Origin: Scatophagus argus
Taxonomy: Eukaryota > Chordata > Actinopteri > Scatophagidae
Direction: 5' to 3'
Assembly: GCF_020382885.2 (NCBI RefSeq)
Contig: NC_058504.1
Span: 10,158,519-10,222,518 of the forward strand
Length of the DNA: 64,000 bases
Under the pieces are notes generated by a model. That model ran no database searches. It was not told where the DNA came from and saw nothing but the letters and a program-made list of their open reading frames with translations. Below are positions 25,301 through 64,000 of the stretch, piece after piece. The translations under genes and the position numbers were made by a program. Positions within the stretch are counted from its first letter, which is position 1. The number at the start of each line of letters is the position of its first letter.

Positions 25301-25864
25301 TTAGAGTTTTCATTTCGGACAACATGTTGGTACCTGGAAGAGTTTTACTGTATTTACTGTATCTATTTCAATGCCGGTAAAAAGTTGGGAACCACCGTGT
25401 TGCATATTTTTGTCTAAATTCTTTGTCCCTCTTCTGTGGCCTCTAAGGACCTAAGGAGAATCTTATATTGAGGACCAACGTCATACATCATACGTGGACT
25501 CACTTGTGTCGGTGCGGGGGGGCAGCATGTCAATCCTCTGCACCTCTTTGGCGTAATAGTCCTCCTCGCTGCTCTCGCGCTCGCACGCGGACTCGGCCAG
25601 TCGCGCGCGCTCCTTCAGCAGCTCCCGCGTGCTGTTGTAGAGCAGCATGACCTCCGGGGGCACCGTGCCGGGCGGCGGGTCCTCGTCTTCATCCGGCGGG
25701 CTGCGGATGCGGAGCTTACTGAGGATCTGTCCGCGGACCGCCTCGATGCGACGGGACTTCTGCTTGTCCAGGTTGATGGACTGGCACGTGTTGATCCCCT
25801 CCACCAGCAGCACACCGGAGAACCGGAGGAGCAGCAGCAGGAGCGCGAGGCGGGGGAGCCACAT
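19821..25864 (-). CDS. tgfb5: TGF-beta2-like ligand precursor (fish TGF-beta6 / tgfb5-type paralogue)
   Basis: Secreted dimeric growth factor made as a latent precursor. Exons in transcript order: 25864-25504, 24809-24646, 24031-23899, 23785-23675, 22551-22371, 21939-21786 and 19979-19821, giving 420 aa. The start [10 protein letters not shown] opens a signal peptide (about 1-22); an in-frame ATG 26 codons upstream is less likely. The latency peptide has INTC (C27, candidate partner for latent-TGF-beta-binding protein), [21 protein letters not shown], a TGFB2-type HCPCCTF cluster and [12 protein letters not shown]. No RGD motif is present. The furin site RKKR ends at residue 306; the 114-residue mature part has nine cysteines in the family pattern (single C, CC, FC, NC, CC, CKC). 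It ends KCR, not the usual KCS. The prodomain is clearly TGFB2-like, while the receptor contacts look TGFB1/3-like. The length agrees with the 420-aa TGF-beta6 I recall from sea bream. The symbol is provisional because fish annotations also use tgfb2-like names. Confidence 0.92.
22319..22349. repeat. (CA)n microsatellite in the TGF-beta gene
   Basis: About 31 bases of CA dinucleotides, some 20 bases downstream (in transcript direction) of the exon 5 donor at 22370. Length changes could affect splicing of the exon that encodes the furin site. Confidence 0.9.
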
Positions 25865-25870
25865 TGTCCG
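25504..25870. promoter_or_regulatory. CpG-dense first exon of the TGF-beta gene
   Basis: Exon 1 is far richer in CpG than the surrounding AT-rich sequence (for example the GCGCTCGCACGCGGACTCGG stretch). This fits a CpG-island promoter at the gene start. A second small CpG-rich patch at about 26405-26445 could mark the transcription start. Inferred from composition only. Confidence 0.5.
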
Positions 25871-27154
25871 GTTAGGAGACGGAGTGACAGAGATACTTCC
25901 TGAACGGCCGTGAAGGAAATCAGCTGAAACAACTGAGGTCACTGCGGTGGGCTGTAACTAAAGCGGAGTCTCAAAACCGCGCATTAAGTAATGTGCGCGT
26001 AAAGTGGTTGAAAATTTCTCCGAAACCTAACTTGAATAAAATTTTTTTTAAAAAAATCATATATCCAGTTCTAACAGGCTATTTTGGTCAAAACCACCCT
26101 CAGTGGAAAAGGAAAACCACACCTGCTGACTTTACATTTATTCTACTGTGGCAATTTTATAACACTGCCCATACACGTGCCTGCGTATTTTAACACCAGA
26201 CACATAAAGAAACATTGTCATTTTATCTTTGGAGTCTACATTTAACTTATTAAATTCAATCTTGTTATGAAAAAAAGAGGCAGTACCAGAAATACATACA
26301 CGCCAAACGATATCACAACCAAACTCCACTGCAGAAACCTCAAATTTAGCGAGTGGAAATTTGGCTGACGCTTTTAATTCCAATCCGGTGTGCTCAAAGC
26401 TCGGTTGTTGTCCCGTGCTGACGCGTGCGCGCTTTCCGCGTGTACAGGTGAAGATATTTAATTACAGTCTAGTCGATGAGTTGGAGCTTCGTCCGTCTCC
26501 GTTTTCCGTTGCCCATCCTCGGATAATTCAACAGCTTTCAGGAGAAAGGAGTCATCGCAGGCGCTCAGCCCATGTCGCAGATCATCCAAACAAAAACCTG
26601 AGCTGCTCATTTCATCTGAAGCAGAATGATCCCCGTGGTTTTACCTTCGAAAGACCCATCTGCTGAGCGAAGAACTGGCCCATACCCGCTTTCAGAAAAT
26701 CTAGTTATAGCTTTAAAAAAATATATACCCAGTGAGATCCTCCCATTCCCTCTTATAGGTAAACAGAAAGCAGCCTGCACTAAAACGTAGAAAAAAACTG
26801 TTGATTTATGTTGGAAAAACCATGGTGGGCCTGTTAATCCCCCTCACATAAACATCAAAACACGGAAAAAGTCAGACGATATAAAAAGACATGACGCAGA
26901 AAAATATATGAAAGAAGTCCTTGTGCTGTGATTTTTTTTTTCTTTTTTAAAAAAGAGAGGAAACTCTACAGTAAATTACTGATCCTCGGTTTAAATTAGC
27001 TCCAGCTTGATGTCTGCTGGGCTGAAAGCTCTGCTGGGAACACCGAGACCTGCTGCATGATGTGAATACTCTGTGATTATTCTGCAGATCCTCTGGGAGA
27101 AATGCACAGAGCCCCAGACAGAAGGAGGTGGAGGGAGGGACTGGATGTGAGAGG

Positions 27155-58110: not shown

Positions 58111-59640
58111 GGTCATTCTTTTTTGTAACTCTTAAGTCAATATTGCTCAGTTTTTTTATATTTATATAACAGTAACGGTATAACATTTTAGGACCGGTCA
58201 GACTGTTTACGTGGAGTTTTACTTGTTTTATTATAGTATTATTAAATATAATTACATGTTAAATATAGATTTACTCAGGCAGAGTCAGTCTGGTTTCATT
58301 GGGTATAACAGTCAATAAAAAGTTGCCATATCTCTTGCTTAGTTTAAAATAAACTCTGGGCCAATAAACTGAGCCATTCTGTGACTTCAGCTGTTCCACT
58401 CTGTTTCTGTCACACAGATACTGAGTGACTTTGCCAACAAAGAACTTTTCAAACCATAAAAATTGTTCAAGATTCTCATCTGTTTGCTGTACTTGAAATG
58501 AATCTTCACTCTTGACATTTGATCTGATCCTGAAGTTACACTGTCAAGTTCAGTTAATAAAACAGACGAGCCACACATAACTAAAAGGCCTGTGTTTGTA
58601 AATATGGTTTCTCAGGGACCCTATTAGTTTCTGCAAGTTTCTATTATATATATATATATATATTGTGTTTGTGAGAGAGATTCCTGTGTATTTGGGACTC
58701 AGTTTCCCAGAAAAGCAAGATCTGAGGTATGATAGAAGCAAACGACATACTTCCTAAAAATGCATTGAAACCCACTGAAAATAATGGACAATGGCTTCCA
58801 AAGTTTTCACCTGCTGAATGACTAATAATAGGTTTGTGCAACTTCTATTCATAAGTTATGTATAGCAAACTACTTTTGGCCTGTTTATTGCTTATTCTAG
58901 GTTATTTTCTACAATTTTTGCAAATTAGCAGTCCATGTGGCCAAGGATTAAATACGAATGGAGGATAAAATGAATGCAGCAAAGTATAGGGAAATCCTGA
59001 AGGACAATCTGATTCAGTCTACAAGACAACTATGACAGGGTTAGAGGAGTTGTTTTCCAGCAAGACAATGACCTGAAGCATAAAGTGAAAGTTACACAGA
59101 AATGGTTTGAAGACAAGGTGAATATTTTAGAATGGCTGAGTCAAAGCCCAGACTTTAATCCAATAAAGAATTTGTGGTTGGACTTGGGCTGTTTCTGCCC
59201 AATCCCTGTGCAACCTGATAGAGCTGAAGCAGTGCTGCAAAGAAGAACGGAGTAAAATTGCAGTGTCCAGATGTGCAAGATGGTTATATCTCAGAATGTA
59301 ATAAACTCAAAAATCCTGTTGTTGACCACTGATGAGTTTTCATGCGATCTAAAAATAAAACTTATACTGTTAGATACTTGCCCAAAGTATGTCCACACAG
59401 AGTTTTAAGACTGTAGACCAATCATAAACGATGTGGCAGTTTCTTTTTCTTCCTAATTGTAGTCTTCTGGCCCATTGAGTTAGTGGCAGTGTATGTGGCA
59501 CATTTTATGATTCAAAGTTTCACAAAAAGTAAGTAACGGTACCTTGAGTGTGCTTCTTTCCAAGAACAAGAATGAACTTTCATGTTCAATATTCTGTCCT
59601 TATTGTTGTTTAAGTGCAATGTAGCGGGCGTGACAAAATT
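58111..59640. other. Spacer between atg2a and nxf1
   Basis: AT-rich, with no gene found. It contains an (AT)n run (58645-58664) and a Tc1 transposase remnant (58955-59300). Confidence 0.6.
58955..59310 (+). pseudogene. Tc1 transposase C-terminal remnant
   Basis: The + strand reads [11 protein letters not shown], then [20 protein letters not shown] and PIKNLWLDL, the classic C-terminal half of a Tc1 transposase. It is a different subfamily from the 3685 element. The catalytic Glu of the DD34E triad (normally PIENLW) is Lys here. No upstream half or clear terminal repeats were found. Confidence 0.85.
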
Positions 59641-59966: not shown

Positions 59967-62597
59967 TCATTTTATGAACGCAATGTCTGGGATTTTGCCT
60001 TCCGTCTGGAAAGGAAGAGGACAGAGGACAAAGAATTTCAGTGCTTTGCTATAAAATGATCACACACTTATGCAGAAGCGAAGAGCTGAAATAACTCGTG
60101 TTACCTTCAACTGAGTGAAAATCTGTGCCGCCCGGTTGAAGTCCCACTCATTGTCTTGCAGACACCTGTGACAGAGAATAAGTGGTCAGGTATTTCGAAC
60201 GAAATCAATAAATTATCAATGTCATTATTGCCGGCGCAATAATAATAATAATAATTGCACAAGCACGAGTCTCACTTTTGGGACCATTCCAGGTTCATGC
60301 CTGACTTCTGTGAGAAGGCTGTGAGCATCTCCTGCTGCGGTGCAGTCAGAGTGGGGACGGGGCTGGAGGATGGAGTCGGGGCGGGCGCAACGAAGGCTCG
60401 GCGGATCTCCTCTGTCGTCGCCATCCGGATGAAAAGCTGGTCATTTACGATGCACAGACTGTGGCACAGGAAGGAGGACACCAGTAAACACACAAAAACA
60501 TTAGAGATGATCCAGCAGATAGTGGTATCAGTACTGGAACAAATCTAAATGAGAGGTGTCCGTTTCAAGTATTTCAGGATAAGTTGAGTTTCCTTCTCTT
60601 GGCTTCCCCCCCCCCCCCACTACTGACCTTTAGGTTCACCTGCCACTAACACTCAACTGTGACTGTTTTAAGAAAGGTGCTGACTGATATTAGACAACAG
60701 AAAATTCATCTGTGTGTACCTAATAAACCGGCATCCTGAGTGTACTTGAGGTAAATTTATCTGCCTACATCCATTTCCCTGCCTATATCCAAACTGTAAA
60801 CTATCAAATAAAGGAAAAAAACAAATTGTTATGTACACGTCAGTGACTAGAGGACAAGGCACGAAAGTTCAGGTTTGTCCCTCAAGCCCAGGGAATTTTC
60901 CTGAAGATACGCAACAGCTCACGATTTAGTACTATTTCCCCTTCCTCAGGGAAAATGCAAAGGACAACAGGAAAATGAAAGAAACCTTTAGAGAGCTAAC
61001 TATACTTACCCAGTATTTCCTGCTGGGACTGTGATGAACACTCGAGAGAAGGCCATGGTGGACTCTCTGGATTTACCATCAACAGCAACTGAAAAAAAAA
61101 GAATGAGGCACAACTTAATAACACAAGCAACACCACCCAAATGTGCACTGAATGAGAACAAAACCACCAGGCAACTCACCTTCTTTGAAGACTCCACTCA
61201 CTGTGAAGGACAGCAGTGTGTTCTGTAGATGGAAAACAATTTTGCAGAATTAACGTAGAATGATTCGCACAGTGAGAGGAAAAGGCTAAAGACAAGTGCC
61301 AGCCGACAGAACAAACACGAACTCACAGTGTAGGTGTTCACGTCAACAGTAAAGGAGGCAATGTCGTGCTGAGTCTTGGGCAACTCGTTGAGGAAAGCAA
61401 CCACATTCAGTCGTGTGTGCTTCAGAAGCCGAAATCTTATCGCTACAAGAGGCAAGATTCAGAGAGGGAAATCATTTAGGAGAAATCTAAAATCACAAAT
61501 ACTCGGTCTCGTCAATTCAGACAATATGACAAGTCAGCAACTCGAGGGGTAAACTCACTGGAGTCTTTGAGTCTCTTCAGGTTTCGACTGTCTTTATGAT
61601 ACTCGCCCAAACTGCTCCTAAAACAAGACGAGAGCAACAGATGGAATCAGTGTGAATACAACCACTATTCAGATAGGGAGGTCTCAGAGGTGGGGTCAGG
61701 GATAAGAACTGCCCATGATGGGTGGAGCTACACAGAAGTCTTTTAAATGACTGGCTGTGTACTGTTTTCATATCCATAGAGAAGGGTTTACCTGGAGGGG
61801 TTCTGGGTGGAGTAAGGCGTAGTGAGGGATAACGATGCTCCATCATGGTAAGCATCCAGGAGCGGCTGCCTGTCCCCTGAGTCGTATATACTGTAGTACC
61901 TGCAACACAGTCACTTGAGTTAGTGTCCTTTGTTTCTTTCTTGCCCACAAAGTCGTGACGTTTCATAAAAAGTCGTGCTGGCCAATCACTCACTAGGTGG
62001 GCCACATTAATTCTGGAAAACAAGCACCGATTCTCAGCATAAAAGCTAAAAACTCACTGTTGTAAGAACCGAAGGATGAGCGCTTTGATTTCATCAGAGC
62101 CGAAACAGCTGCCCTGCAATGTCAATTGGAAAAACGTTTGTCAGGTGCACGAAGGAGACAAAAACTATCTTGACTTTCACCTAAAGGAGGACCGTGCAGC
62201 TTAAAATGTGCACTTCTGAAATGAATTACTGAAGACATGAAGGTCTTGTAGAGCTTCTACTGACTGTCACATACATCAGAAGATAACATCAATATGTCAG
62301 TTTGCATATATCTGTCACATGAGATAAAACAAGTAACCTTGCATGGGGGGATAGTGGTGGGGGTTTCCACATCAAATCCAATGGGTGGAGGGAGGTCATG
62401 ACCATCCTAAAAAGAAACCAGACGTAAAGGAAGAGAATATGCTCCAAATACTGCATCATTGAAAAGGTTCAGAATGGTGGAATGCAAAAAGGTCCTTAAA
62501 AACAAGATAGCCGACTCCAGGGCCAGTGGTATTTTCATGCTGTACCATACTTGGACTTACCAGTTTGAGGAGCCGGGGAAACCTCTGCCGCACAGCA
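59967..62597 (-). CDS. nxf1: NXF1 (TAP) mRNA export receptor, C-terminal part
   Basis: Main receptor carrying mRNA through nuclear pores as a dimer with NXT1/p15. Eleven exons are visible (transcript order): 62597-62561, 62406-62338, 62113-62058, 61899-61792, 61617-61559, 61442-61327, 61222-61180, 61088-61010, 60458-60276, 60165-60105 and 60005-59967. They encode the last 282 residues, entering in mid-codon and closing in frame. The first exon ends the leucine-rich-repeat region ([12 protein letters not shown]). The NTF2-like domain follows ([53 protein letters not shown]), then a Pro/Ser linker ([12 protein letters not shown]). The TAP-C/UBA-like domain comes last ([33 protein letters not shown]). 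The protein ends IAFIK. RNA-binding and most LRR exons lie beyond the window. The intron before 62597 is over 1.4 kb, much larger than the others. Confidence 0.96.
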
Positions 62598-64000
62598 CTG
62601 GTTCAGGAACAAAAATCAAGAGCAGGAAAGTTATCATCACAAACCACCCAGCACATAAATCATTCTCATTACATTTAATGCTACTGTCAGTCACACCTGC
62701 TGACCCACTTAATGGCAATTTGTGCCTTTCACCTGATGTAATTTTAAGTTGCTACACTGTCGGGAACATTAAGAGAATACAGTCAGGACAGATACGTTGA
62801 TACACAAAATGTAGTGTACGAGTGACGTAGAGGTTTAACCTTTGTGGACAGGTAAAACCACAAATGGACTATCATATCCGTCTTTCAGTACAGAGCTGTG
62901 CCTTTTGACAATTCTCCCTCCCCAAAGTGTACTTACCAGCAGGTATACTCACCCTCTCCCCCAATATGGTGATATACACAGATCTGACAAGGTGAATCGT
63001 AAACATGCTTTTCCACGAGACACAGATACAAACATACAGAGACCCACGACCTACCAGACTGCGCTGGAAACCAGTAAACACACTCATTTTGAATTAGTAA
63101 AATGAAAAAGGTTATGCAATGCTTGCGAGCAGAGAGGTGATTACCGCCAGTCTTCCCCCTAAATTCTGGCCAAGATGCTGGGGAACAGATGAGTTTATGT
63201 CACCGAAAAAACAAAGTAAGGTCTGGGTTTTTTAAAAAGCAAAAATGAAGTACACACAAACACAAGCACACGTGGTCCAACACTCACTAGAGGCAACAAA
63301 CAGTGCTATTCATCAGGTAAATTATTCTGTCTGTCGTGATTATCAGCAAAGAAAGACCGCCTGAGAACAGGGTGGAACAAAAAGGACAGCCAGTCTCAAA
63401 GTGAGCTGCACCCAGCATTCCCACTACTCATCCTATAGCCCCTCGTGCTTCTCAAACAAAGAAATTATCAGTTAAGTACCTCATAGCCACAATCCTTTCT
63501 GAAGAGATGGGTCTTCATGCACTAGTAATAAAGGGACTTCATGTTTCAGGCTTTTGATGTTCTAGTGTAATTTGGGTCCCAAGCCTCAAGTTTAAGATGG
63601 GCTGGGGAATTGTCATGCATTCGAATAGAGTGCCAAGTCTCTACTCTGTTCTCTGCTTAACGGTTGAGCTTTTTGTACTGGTCACAGCCAACAGAAACTG
63701 GAAGAGGAAGTGTTTTCACTTTTTTTTTGTCCCCATTCGAAATATTTCAGGCAAAGCTTCAATTTCCAGTTCAGAACATCTTTCTTTCAGAAATTAGTTA
63801 AGGGTATTTGCCATACTCTCCACATCATTCACTGAACACCAGAGGCCTGTTTTAGGCCAAAGAGAACCAACTTATTGGAAGAGACAATGATTTTTCTCTT
63901 TGGCTCATCACTGGTCATTGATAATGGCCCATATCCTCCTCCTCCTCCTCAGCCCAGCGGCTTCTCCCATGGAGTCCCATCTTCACAAGTTCTTCTTGTC
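62598..64000 (-). other. Long nxf1 intron, 3' part
   Basis: No further nxf1 coding exon is recognisable between 62598 and the window end, so this is the 3' part of a large intron upstream of the 37-nt exon. By its place near the end of the leucine-rich region it appears equivalent to mammalian NXF1 intron 10, the intron known to be retained. It contains the CTE-like hairpin at 63841-63925, donor-like sites at about 62938 and 62950, and a (CTC)n run at 63935-63951. Confidence 0.6.
63841..63925 (-). promoter_or_regulatory. CTE-like RNA export hairpin in the nxf1 intron
   Basis: On the nxf1 sense strand, CAATGACCAG (63920-63911) precedes an 11-bp perfect stem: GCCAAAGAGAA (63904-63894) pairs with TTCTCTTTGGC (63866-63856). 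The stem encloses a 27-nt loop that contains the small hairpin CCAATAAGTTGG. The 3' arm runs into CCTAAAACAGG (63856-63846) and then CTGGT, which can pair with ACCAG. The CTE family shows CAAUGAC on one side and CCUAAGACAGG on the other side of an internal loop that binds NXF1. Here the first block is identical and the second differs at one base. Position, order and spacing agree with an intronic CTE. Single-loop architecture is inferred. Confidence 0.6.

Follow-up and report, generated by a model that had tools for sequence, protein, structure and literature searches.

A candidate constitutive transport element in intron 10 of fish nxf1 and its relatives elsewhere in the genome

The nxf1 locus and its intron 10

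The window, i.e., the whole stretch of 64,000 nucleotides analysed here (C12:10158519-10222518), belongs to a searched genome of 570,666,677 bases in 48 contigs. Its far end lies within nxf1, encoded on the minus strand, and the adjoining stretch, located upstream of the window in the gene, is designated L011 (position p corresponds to window coordinate p+63481). The identification of the host gene as nxf1 in the earlier note is borne out by two protein matches to human NXF1, one of 91 residues obtained by joining four downstream exons (E 4.9e-43) and another of 241 residues of the RRM-LRR part from the upstream flank (3rw6, E 1.5e-100, 143 of 241 residues identical). A genome search with the 91 residues gave at least three matches, every one within nxf1 itself. 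Of the CTE-contact residues of human NXF1 listed in an excerpt of PMC4330390, the fish protein retains 6 of the 12 RRM residues and 6 of the 8 LRR residues, which counts against the CTE candidate described below.

The earlier note had described the hairpin at 63841-63925, referred to below as the flagged hairpin, as a probable constitutive transport element (CTE); another candidate is located just beyond the window edge. The features are as follows:

62561..62597, minus strand: nxf1 exon 11; its split serine codon begins in exon 10
62598..64000, minus strand: the part of nxf1 intron 10 within the window, splice sites read from the sequence
63846..63856, minus strand: CCTAAAACAGG, proposed 3' loop strand of the flagged hairpin, found by motif search
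63856..63904, minus strand: perfect 11-bp inverted repeat from the inverted-repeat listing, arms 63894-63904 and 63856-63866 with 27 nt between them
63914..63920, minus strand: CAATGAC, proposed 5' loop strand of the flagged hairpin, found by motif search; it is flanked by TC and CAGT instead of CC and GGGT
64032-64131 (C12:10222550-10222649; L011:551-650), minus strand: candidate nxf1 CTE, recognized by loop strands, helices and relatives
64106-64095 and 64067-64056, minus strand: core strands of the candidate CTE, CCCATGACGGGT and ACCTAAGGCAGG, respectively, found by motif match

The entire intron 10 spans 62598-65088 (2,491 nt, phase 2), with its 5' end, GTCAGT, at window-equivalent 65088. 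Exon 10 ends with ..DQASYI plus AG, and the intron interrupts a serine codon aligned to human NXF1 residue 339, in a numbering that takes the 3rw6 chain to start at residue 96. Judged from residue 339, this is likely the same intron as human NXF1 intron 10. Reading through from exon 10 adds eight intron-coded residues, RSVSDFGG, followed by an in-frame stop.

Two other open frames in the window were noticed by eye: one at 59013-59255 (plus strand), past the nxf1 3' exons, resembles a remnant of a Tc1/mariner transposase, and one at 25481-25957 (minus strand) resembles a TGF-beta prodomain exon.

The candidate CTE and its relatives

The candidate CTE is located in intron 10, 32 nt past the window edge and about 107-110 nt upstream of the flagged hairpin; the distance from the 5' splice site to the start of its own hairpin is 957 nt. 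It consists of the strands CC-CAUGAC-GGGU and ACCU-AAGGCA-GG set in an imperfect hairpin of about 100 nt. As modelled, the outer part of this hairpin (64131-64032) comprises a 9-bp stem with one bulge, a 5x5 loop, 5 bp, a 4x1 loop and 3 bp, while the inner part comprises the 6x6 loop, 4 bp, a 4x2 loop, 5 bp and an 11-nt apical loop. In comparison with the half-CTE strands ACCU-AAGACA-GG and CC-AAAGAC-GGGU, taken from primers in an excerpt of PMC4330393, 22 of 24 positions match, with all 12 helix positions exact and 2 of the 12 loop bases (in CAUGAC and AAGGCA) different. The best of 5000 shuffles of the intron had four mismatches, in five shuffles, versus two for the candidate, which ranks first, with the flagged element second, when the window and 9.4 kb of flank are scanned on both strands. 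Its strand AAGGCA is one base off AAGACA, and AAGGCA is also present in the downstream copy at each of the seven other loci described below.

A search of the whole genome with the pattern CCNAWGACGGGTN{15,45}ACCTAARRCAGG gave eight matches, nxf1 and seven others; the backward control and the motif in the opposite order each gave none. The seven loci are:

L015-L021: paired CTE-like hairpins, one pair at C3:15941250-15941561 and six on C11 between 3.6 and 7.8 Mb

Alignment of the seven loci revealed a second CTE-like hairpin upstream of the copy found first in all of them. This upstream copy, of the form GGGUCAAGUA..CC-UAUGAC-AGGU..ACCU-AAGACA-GG..UACUUGACCC, carries the exact published AAGACA core in 7 of 7 loci, is 97 nt long and ends 113-120 nt before the 99-nt downstream copy. 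In two loci that were folded the upstream copies have z-scores of -4.80 and -3.57, each with 0 of 200 shuffles as stable, and in their minimum free energy (MFE) structures the outer stems alone are as modelled, with other pairings in the inner part. For the single downstream copy that was folded the z-score is -0.16. Of the two copies it is the downstream one that the nxf1 CTE resembles.

A DNA search of the genome with a 318-base query led to nine places, namely the eight already named plus a fragment of 74 nt at C11:95115-95188 (plus strand; L039:5116-5189). The latter is an isolated CTE core without the outer stem, scoring 69.8 bits with the covariance model described below. When L011, with the flagged element included, was compared by BLAST with two of the seven loci, only L011:539-650, i.e., the candidate hairpin plus 12 nt, could be aligned (80-91% identity), and the window itself gave no BLAST match to one of these two loci. 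Such confinement of the similarity to the hairpin plus 12 nt points to retention of the hairpin amid diverging flanks, though transfer of the hairpin alone would give the same picture.

The structure was examined on an alignment of 11 rows, six of them distinct, comprising nxf1, six of the seven upstream copies and four of the seven downstream ones. In the structure specified by the analyst 93.2% of 147 cells pair, versus 20-46% when the partners are slid by 1-3 columns, a percentage that is biased because a structure drawn from these same sequences favours itself. Three pairs are doubly compensated, two in the outer stem and one in the helix adjoining the binding loop; when partners were shuffled, the count of double changes was reached in 138 of 500 cases and the covariation score in only 10, which amounts to modest support. 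RNAalifold run without a given structure returned 20 of the 25 specified pairs together with the same three doubly changed pairs. A covariance model found 11 places in six sources totalling 113.5 kb, most of which carry no weight, being training sequences or duplicates of these; the informative part of the search is the miss in the window, discussed in the next section.

Predicted folding energy lends the candidate itself no support. The isolated 100 nt have an MFE structure of -28.4 kcal/mol with the overall hairpin shape and the binding loop in a shifted register (z -0.42; 60 of 200 shuffles fold equally well), and a 96-nt cut of the region folds differently (z -0.41). The CTE fold is absent from the MFE structures of the 77, 116, 171 and 251 nt contexts, and in the 171-nt context the six canonical CTE pairs tested have a probability of 0.001 or less. 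Once imposed, the CTE fold lies above the MFE by 1.0, 1.7 and 7.9 kcal/mol in 68, 108 and 188 nt, respectively. As far as such modelling goes, folding energy does not decide the matter, longer contexts being predicted to favour other folds for the flagged and the candidate element alike, and the case for the candidate CTE rests on sequence, geometry and genomic copies.

The flagged hairpin

The three components described in the earlier note, CAATGAC, the 11-bp inverted repeat and CCTAAAACAGG, were all found on the minus strand of the nxf1 intron. The arms are the sole 100% complementary pair among the four inverted repeats listed for 62600-64000, and CCTAAAACAGG has one base in common with the 3' arm. 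Shuffled sequences of 64 kb contain a mean of 1.7 perfect 11-bp inverted repeats with a spacer of 3-60 nt (0 to 7 in 60 shuffles). The count of 232 in the real window is not comparable with the shuffles, the first 60 listed all falling within one (AT)n tract. CCTAARACAGG with up to one mismatch is seen three times in the window versus 2.46 expected, and CAAWGAC 22 times versus 27.15. The exact combination of motifs with arms of at least 10 was found in 0 of 756 shuffles (one strand), and the relaxed one (up to one mismatch per motif, arms of at least 8) on average 0.017 times per shuffle, with a maximum of 2. The combination is therefore unusual, though it was put together after the fact.

A CTE needs short helices flanking its 6x6 loop, and these form part of the element. 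At the flagged site AAUGAC is flanked by UC and CAGU, the latter being unable to pair with the GCCU that precedes AAAACA, so that the helices adjacent to the loop amount to two pairs on the outer side and none on the inner one. The core change pointed out in the earlier note is indeed present here, as AAAACA is one base off AAGACA; the better candidate has AAGGCA instead. Pairing of GCC-GCU-GGGC with GCCU-AAAACA-GG, suggested by a wide-context fold and CTE-like in appearance, was rejected, as its 5' loop strand has just 3 nt and as partners of this kind should, by a rough estimate, often turn up within 150 nt. When the window was scanned for loop strands with at most one mismatch each and short adjacent helices, there were 22 matches on the minus strand and 27 on the plus strand, and therefore these features alone are too weak a criterion.

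Of the checks proposed in the earlier note, a covariance-model scan and folding of the surrounding minus strand, the former went against the flagged site. The model of fish CTEs, built from this study's own candidates, had zero matches in the window at E<=10, and with filters off (L011:1-1750) the flagged place scored about 4 bits, on a par with other places in that stretch. In the 221 nt folded, the pairing probability of the flagged arms is 0.001 per arm pair. Local folding over 126 nt yields an MFE structure in which the 11-bp stem is present and CAAUGAC sits in a separate hairpin loop, not facing AAAACA (z 0.21; 111 of 200 shuffles equally good). Neither of these two folding tests discriminates, because the better candidate at 64032-64131 fails them too in wide context. 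The local alignments of the flagged element to the nxf1 CTE and to the copies CTE1 and CTE2 were equalled by 483, 809 and 790 of 1000 shuffles, respectively. Neither the flagged site nor the upstream intron gave a match in an Rfam search up to E 5, and the flagged element is single-copy in the genome at the sensitivity of the DNA search used. With its flanking helices missing, no model match and an alignment no better than that of shuffles, the flagged hairpin is probably a coincidence and not the CTE.

Explanations and known systems

The best explanation, with a probability of roughly 0.78, is that intron 10 of fish nxf1 harbours a cellular CTE at 64032-64131 and that the flagged hairpin is its chance neighbour. 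Position, loop-strand sequence, helix complementarity and genomic copies are the observed basis for it, and the fold in the cell, binding by Nxf1, export, translation and feedback are proposed on the model of human NXF1. An RNA retaining intron 10 would form the imperfect hairpin of about 100 nt, the 6x6 loop of which, with CAUGAC opposite AAGGCA between GCC/GGC and GGGU/ACCU, could be bound directly by Nxf1-Nxt1. This complex would then carry the unspliced nxf1 mRNA out of the nucleus, and more Nxf1 would mean more export of the short-form mRNA, a possible feedback loop. As a candidate CTE of the right geometry is located 32 nt past the window edge in the same intron, the claim that the nxf1 intron carries a CTE probably holds for its biology and not for its address: the interpretation given in the earlier note is probably right in spirit and wrong in place.

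The flagged element could also be a decayed second CTE, a remnant of a former tandem pair in nxf1 whose downstream copy has rotted. It lies about 107 nt downstream of the candidate, close to the 113-120 nt that separate the paired copies at the other loci, and its five mismatches to the 24 published loop-strand positions are reached (five or fewer) by only 70 of 5000 intron shuffles. However, its alignment to the CTE copies is matched by many shuffles and its model score is low, as given above, and the extra copy at the other loci is the upstream one, whereas the nxf1 CTE resembles the downstream one; on balance such a decay seems improbable. Still harder to sustain is the view that the flagged element functions as a divergent CTE in its own right, with a three-way junction replacing the 6x6 loop. 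The exact AAUGAC, the strand close to AAGACA, the perfect 11-bp stem between them, which persists in the 126-nt MFE structure, and the right intron speak for it, but the absence of flanking helices, the placement of CAAUGAC in another hairpin loop, the lack of a model match, the uniqueness in the genome at the sensitivity used and the better candidate adjoining it make this reading very improbable.

It is also conceivable that a mobile element spread the CTE and that nxf1 acquired its copy by insertion instead of having carried it ancestrally. The seven other loci, the fragment at C11:95115-95188 and the restriction of similarity with nxf1 to the hairpin plus 12 nt might point this way. When five of the seven loci, represented by stretches taken at four places, were compared over 10 to 20 kb, they proved to have a common unit of at most about 7 kb. 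No mobile-element protein was found in five open reading frames of the shared unit or in three neighbouring stretches of 9.9 kb (three frames, one strand each), and the spacing of three C11 copies by about 3.94 kb, together with the 99.7% identity of two neighbouring units over 3,561 nt, fits tandem duplication. The mammalian CTE in NXF1 intron 10 (PMC6478720 and PMC5602073, both in excerpt) in turn points to an ancestral feature, and mobile spread is accordingly considered unlikely.

The fish nxf1 CTE belongs to a known kind of element. A 2015 paper by Wang et al. in RNA reportedly deals with zebrafish and coelacanth NXF1 CTEs, and a fish nxf1 CTE is said to work with zebrafish Nxf1 and Nxt. 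Among the closest known systems is human NXF1, the intron 10 CTE of which is credited to Li et al. 2006 in excerpts of PMC6478720, PMC4330390 and PMC4782049. According to an excerpt of PMC6478720 the human element is 96 nt long with a single loop, which means that the single binding loop, regarded in the earlier note as a shortening in fish, is not fish-specific. The fish candidate shares with it the gene, probably the intron, the single loop, the length of about 96-100 nt and, as far as the excerpts describe the human case, a retained intron encoding a C-terminally truncated protein. NXF1 binds heavily inside its own intron 10 (PMC4782049, excerpt), and PMC5602073 (excerpt) presents the short protein as a cofactor in a circuit that may constitute a feedback loop. 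The differences are that binding and export were shown in human only and that the fish loop reads CAUGAC / AAGGCA, the two elements being compared by description.

The half-CTE of SRV-1, a type D simian retrovirus, resembles the fish candidate in its ACCU-loop-GG and CC-loop-GGGU strands and, by eye, in a 5-bp helix beyond a small A-rich loop next to GGGU/ACCU, the letters of which differ on both sides in fish. In contrast to fish, where the CC strand comes first, the order of strands is swapped in SRV-1, and unlike fish nxf1 the virus has two sites in one symmetric stem; this two-site arrangement is best known from type D retroviruses. Nine virus contigs contain CCTAAGACAGGAGGG, none of them also containing CCAAAGACGGGT in the stretch examined, and these matches were taken as chance. 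The gamma-CTE of MLV pol, as described in an excerpt of PMC4174252, is a stem-loop recognized by its fold and AAGACA, a change in which attenuates activity. Unlike the fish candidate, it resides in a viral pol gene, and one to three copies have little effect, four or more being active; because of this need for four or more copies, a motif within a hairpin is weak evidence.

If the candidate is the nxf1 CTE, the likely address of the element shifts, and 64032-64131, rather than the flagged hairpin, becomes the proper target for tests. Besides, one genome supplies natural loop variants, AAGGCA, AAGACA, CAUGAC, UAUGAC and RAUGAC, for the tolerance of Nxf1.

What would surprise a specialist is the pairing of CTEs at the seven other loci; among the matches listed in a literature search, neither a fish CTE sequence nor paired cellular CTEs were the subject of any paper. 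With a reporter in human cells, a signal 33-fold above background was obtained from two NXF1 CTEs and 3-fold from one (PMC6478720, excerpt). As a tentative proposal, which we hold to be somewhat less probable than its opposite, the seven-locus family may represent host genes whose intron-retaining mRNA is exported through direct binding of Nxf1 to two tandem CTEs, an Nxf1 regulon. Should the pairs work, direct Nxf1-driven export of retained introns would, in a vertebrate, not be limited to nxf1, nor would two-site CTEs be exclusively viral. Judging from splice-like sites recognized by eye, the pair may sit in an intron. Five open reading frames near the paired CTEs had no match in Pfam, and one of them had none in a PDB search. 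Upstream of the pair, on the same strand, there is an open frame rich in K and E, of 836 aa on C3 (L024:6459-8969, minus strand), which matches nothing in Pfam or PDB; on C11 this frame is interrupted by one TAG in one copy, with just pieces of it in the others. It is also worth noting that exons of a sodium:neurotransmitter symporter adjoin the C3 copy (L036 and L037, minus strand), with leucine-rich-repeat exons further on.
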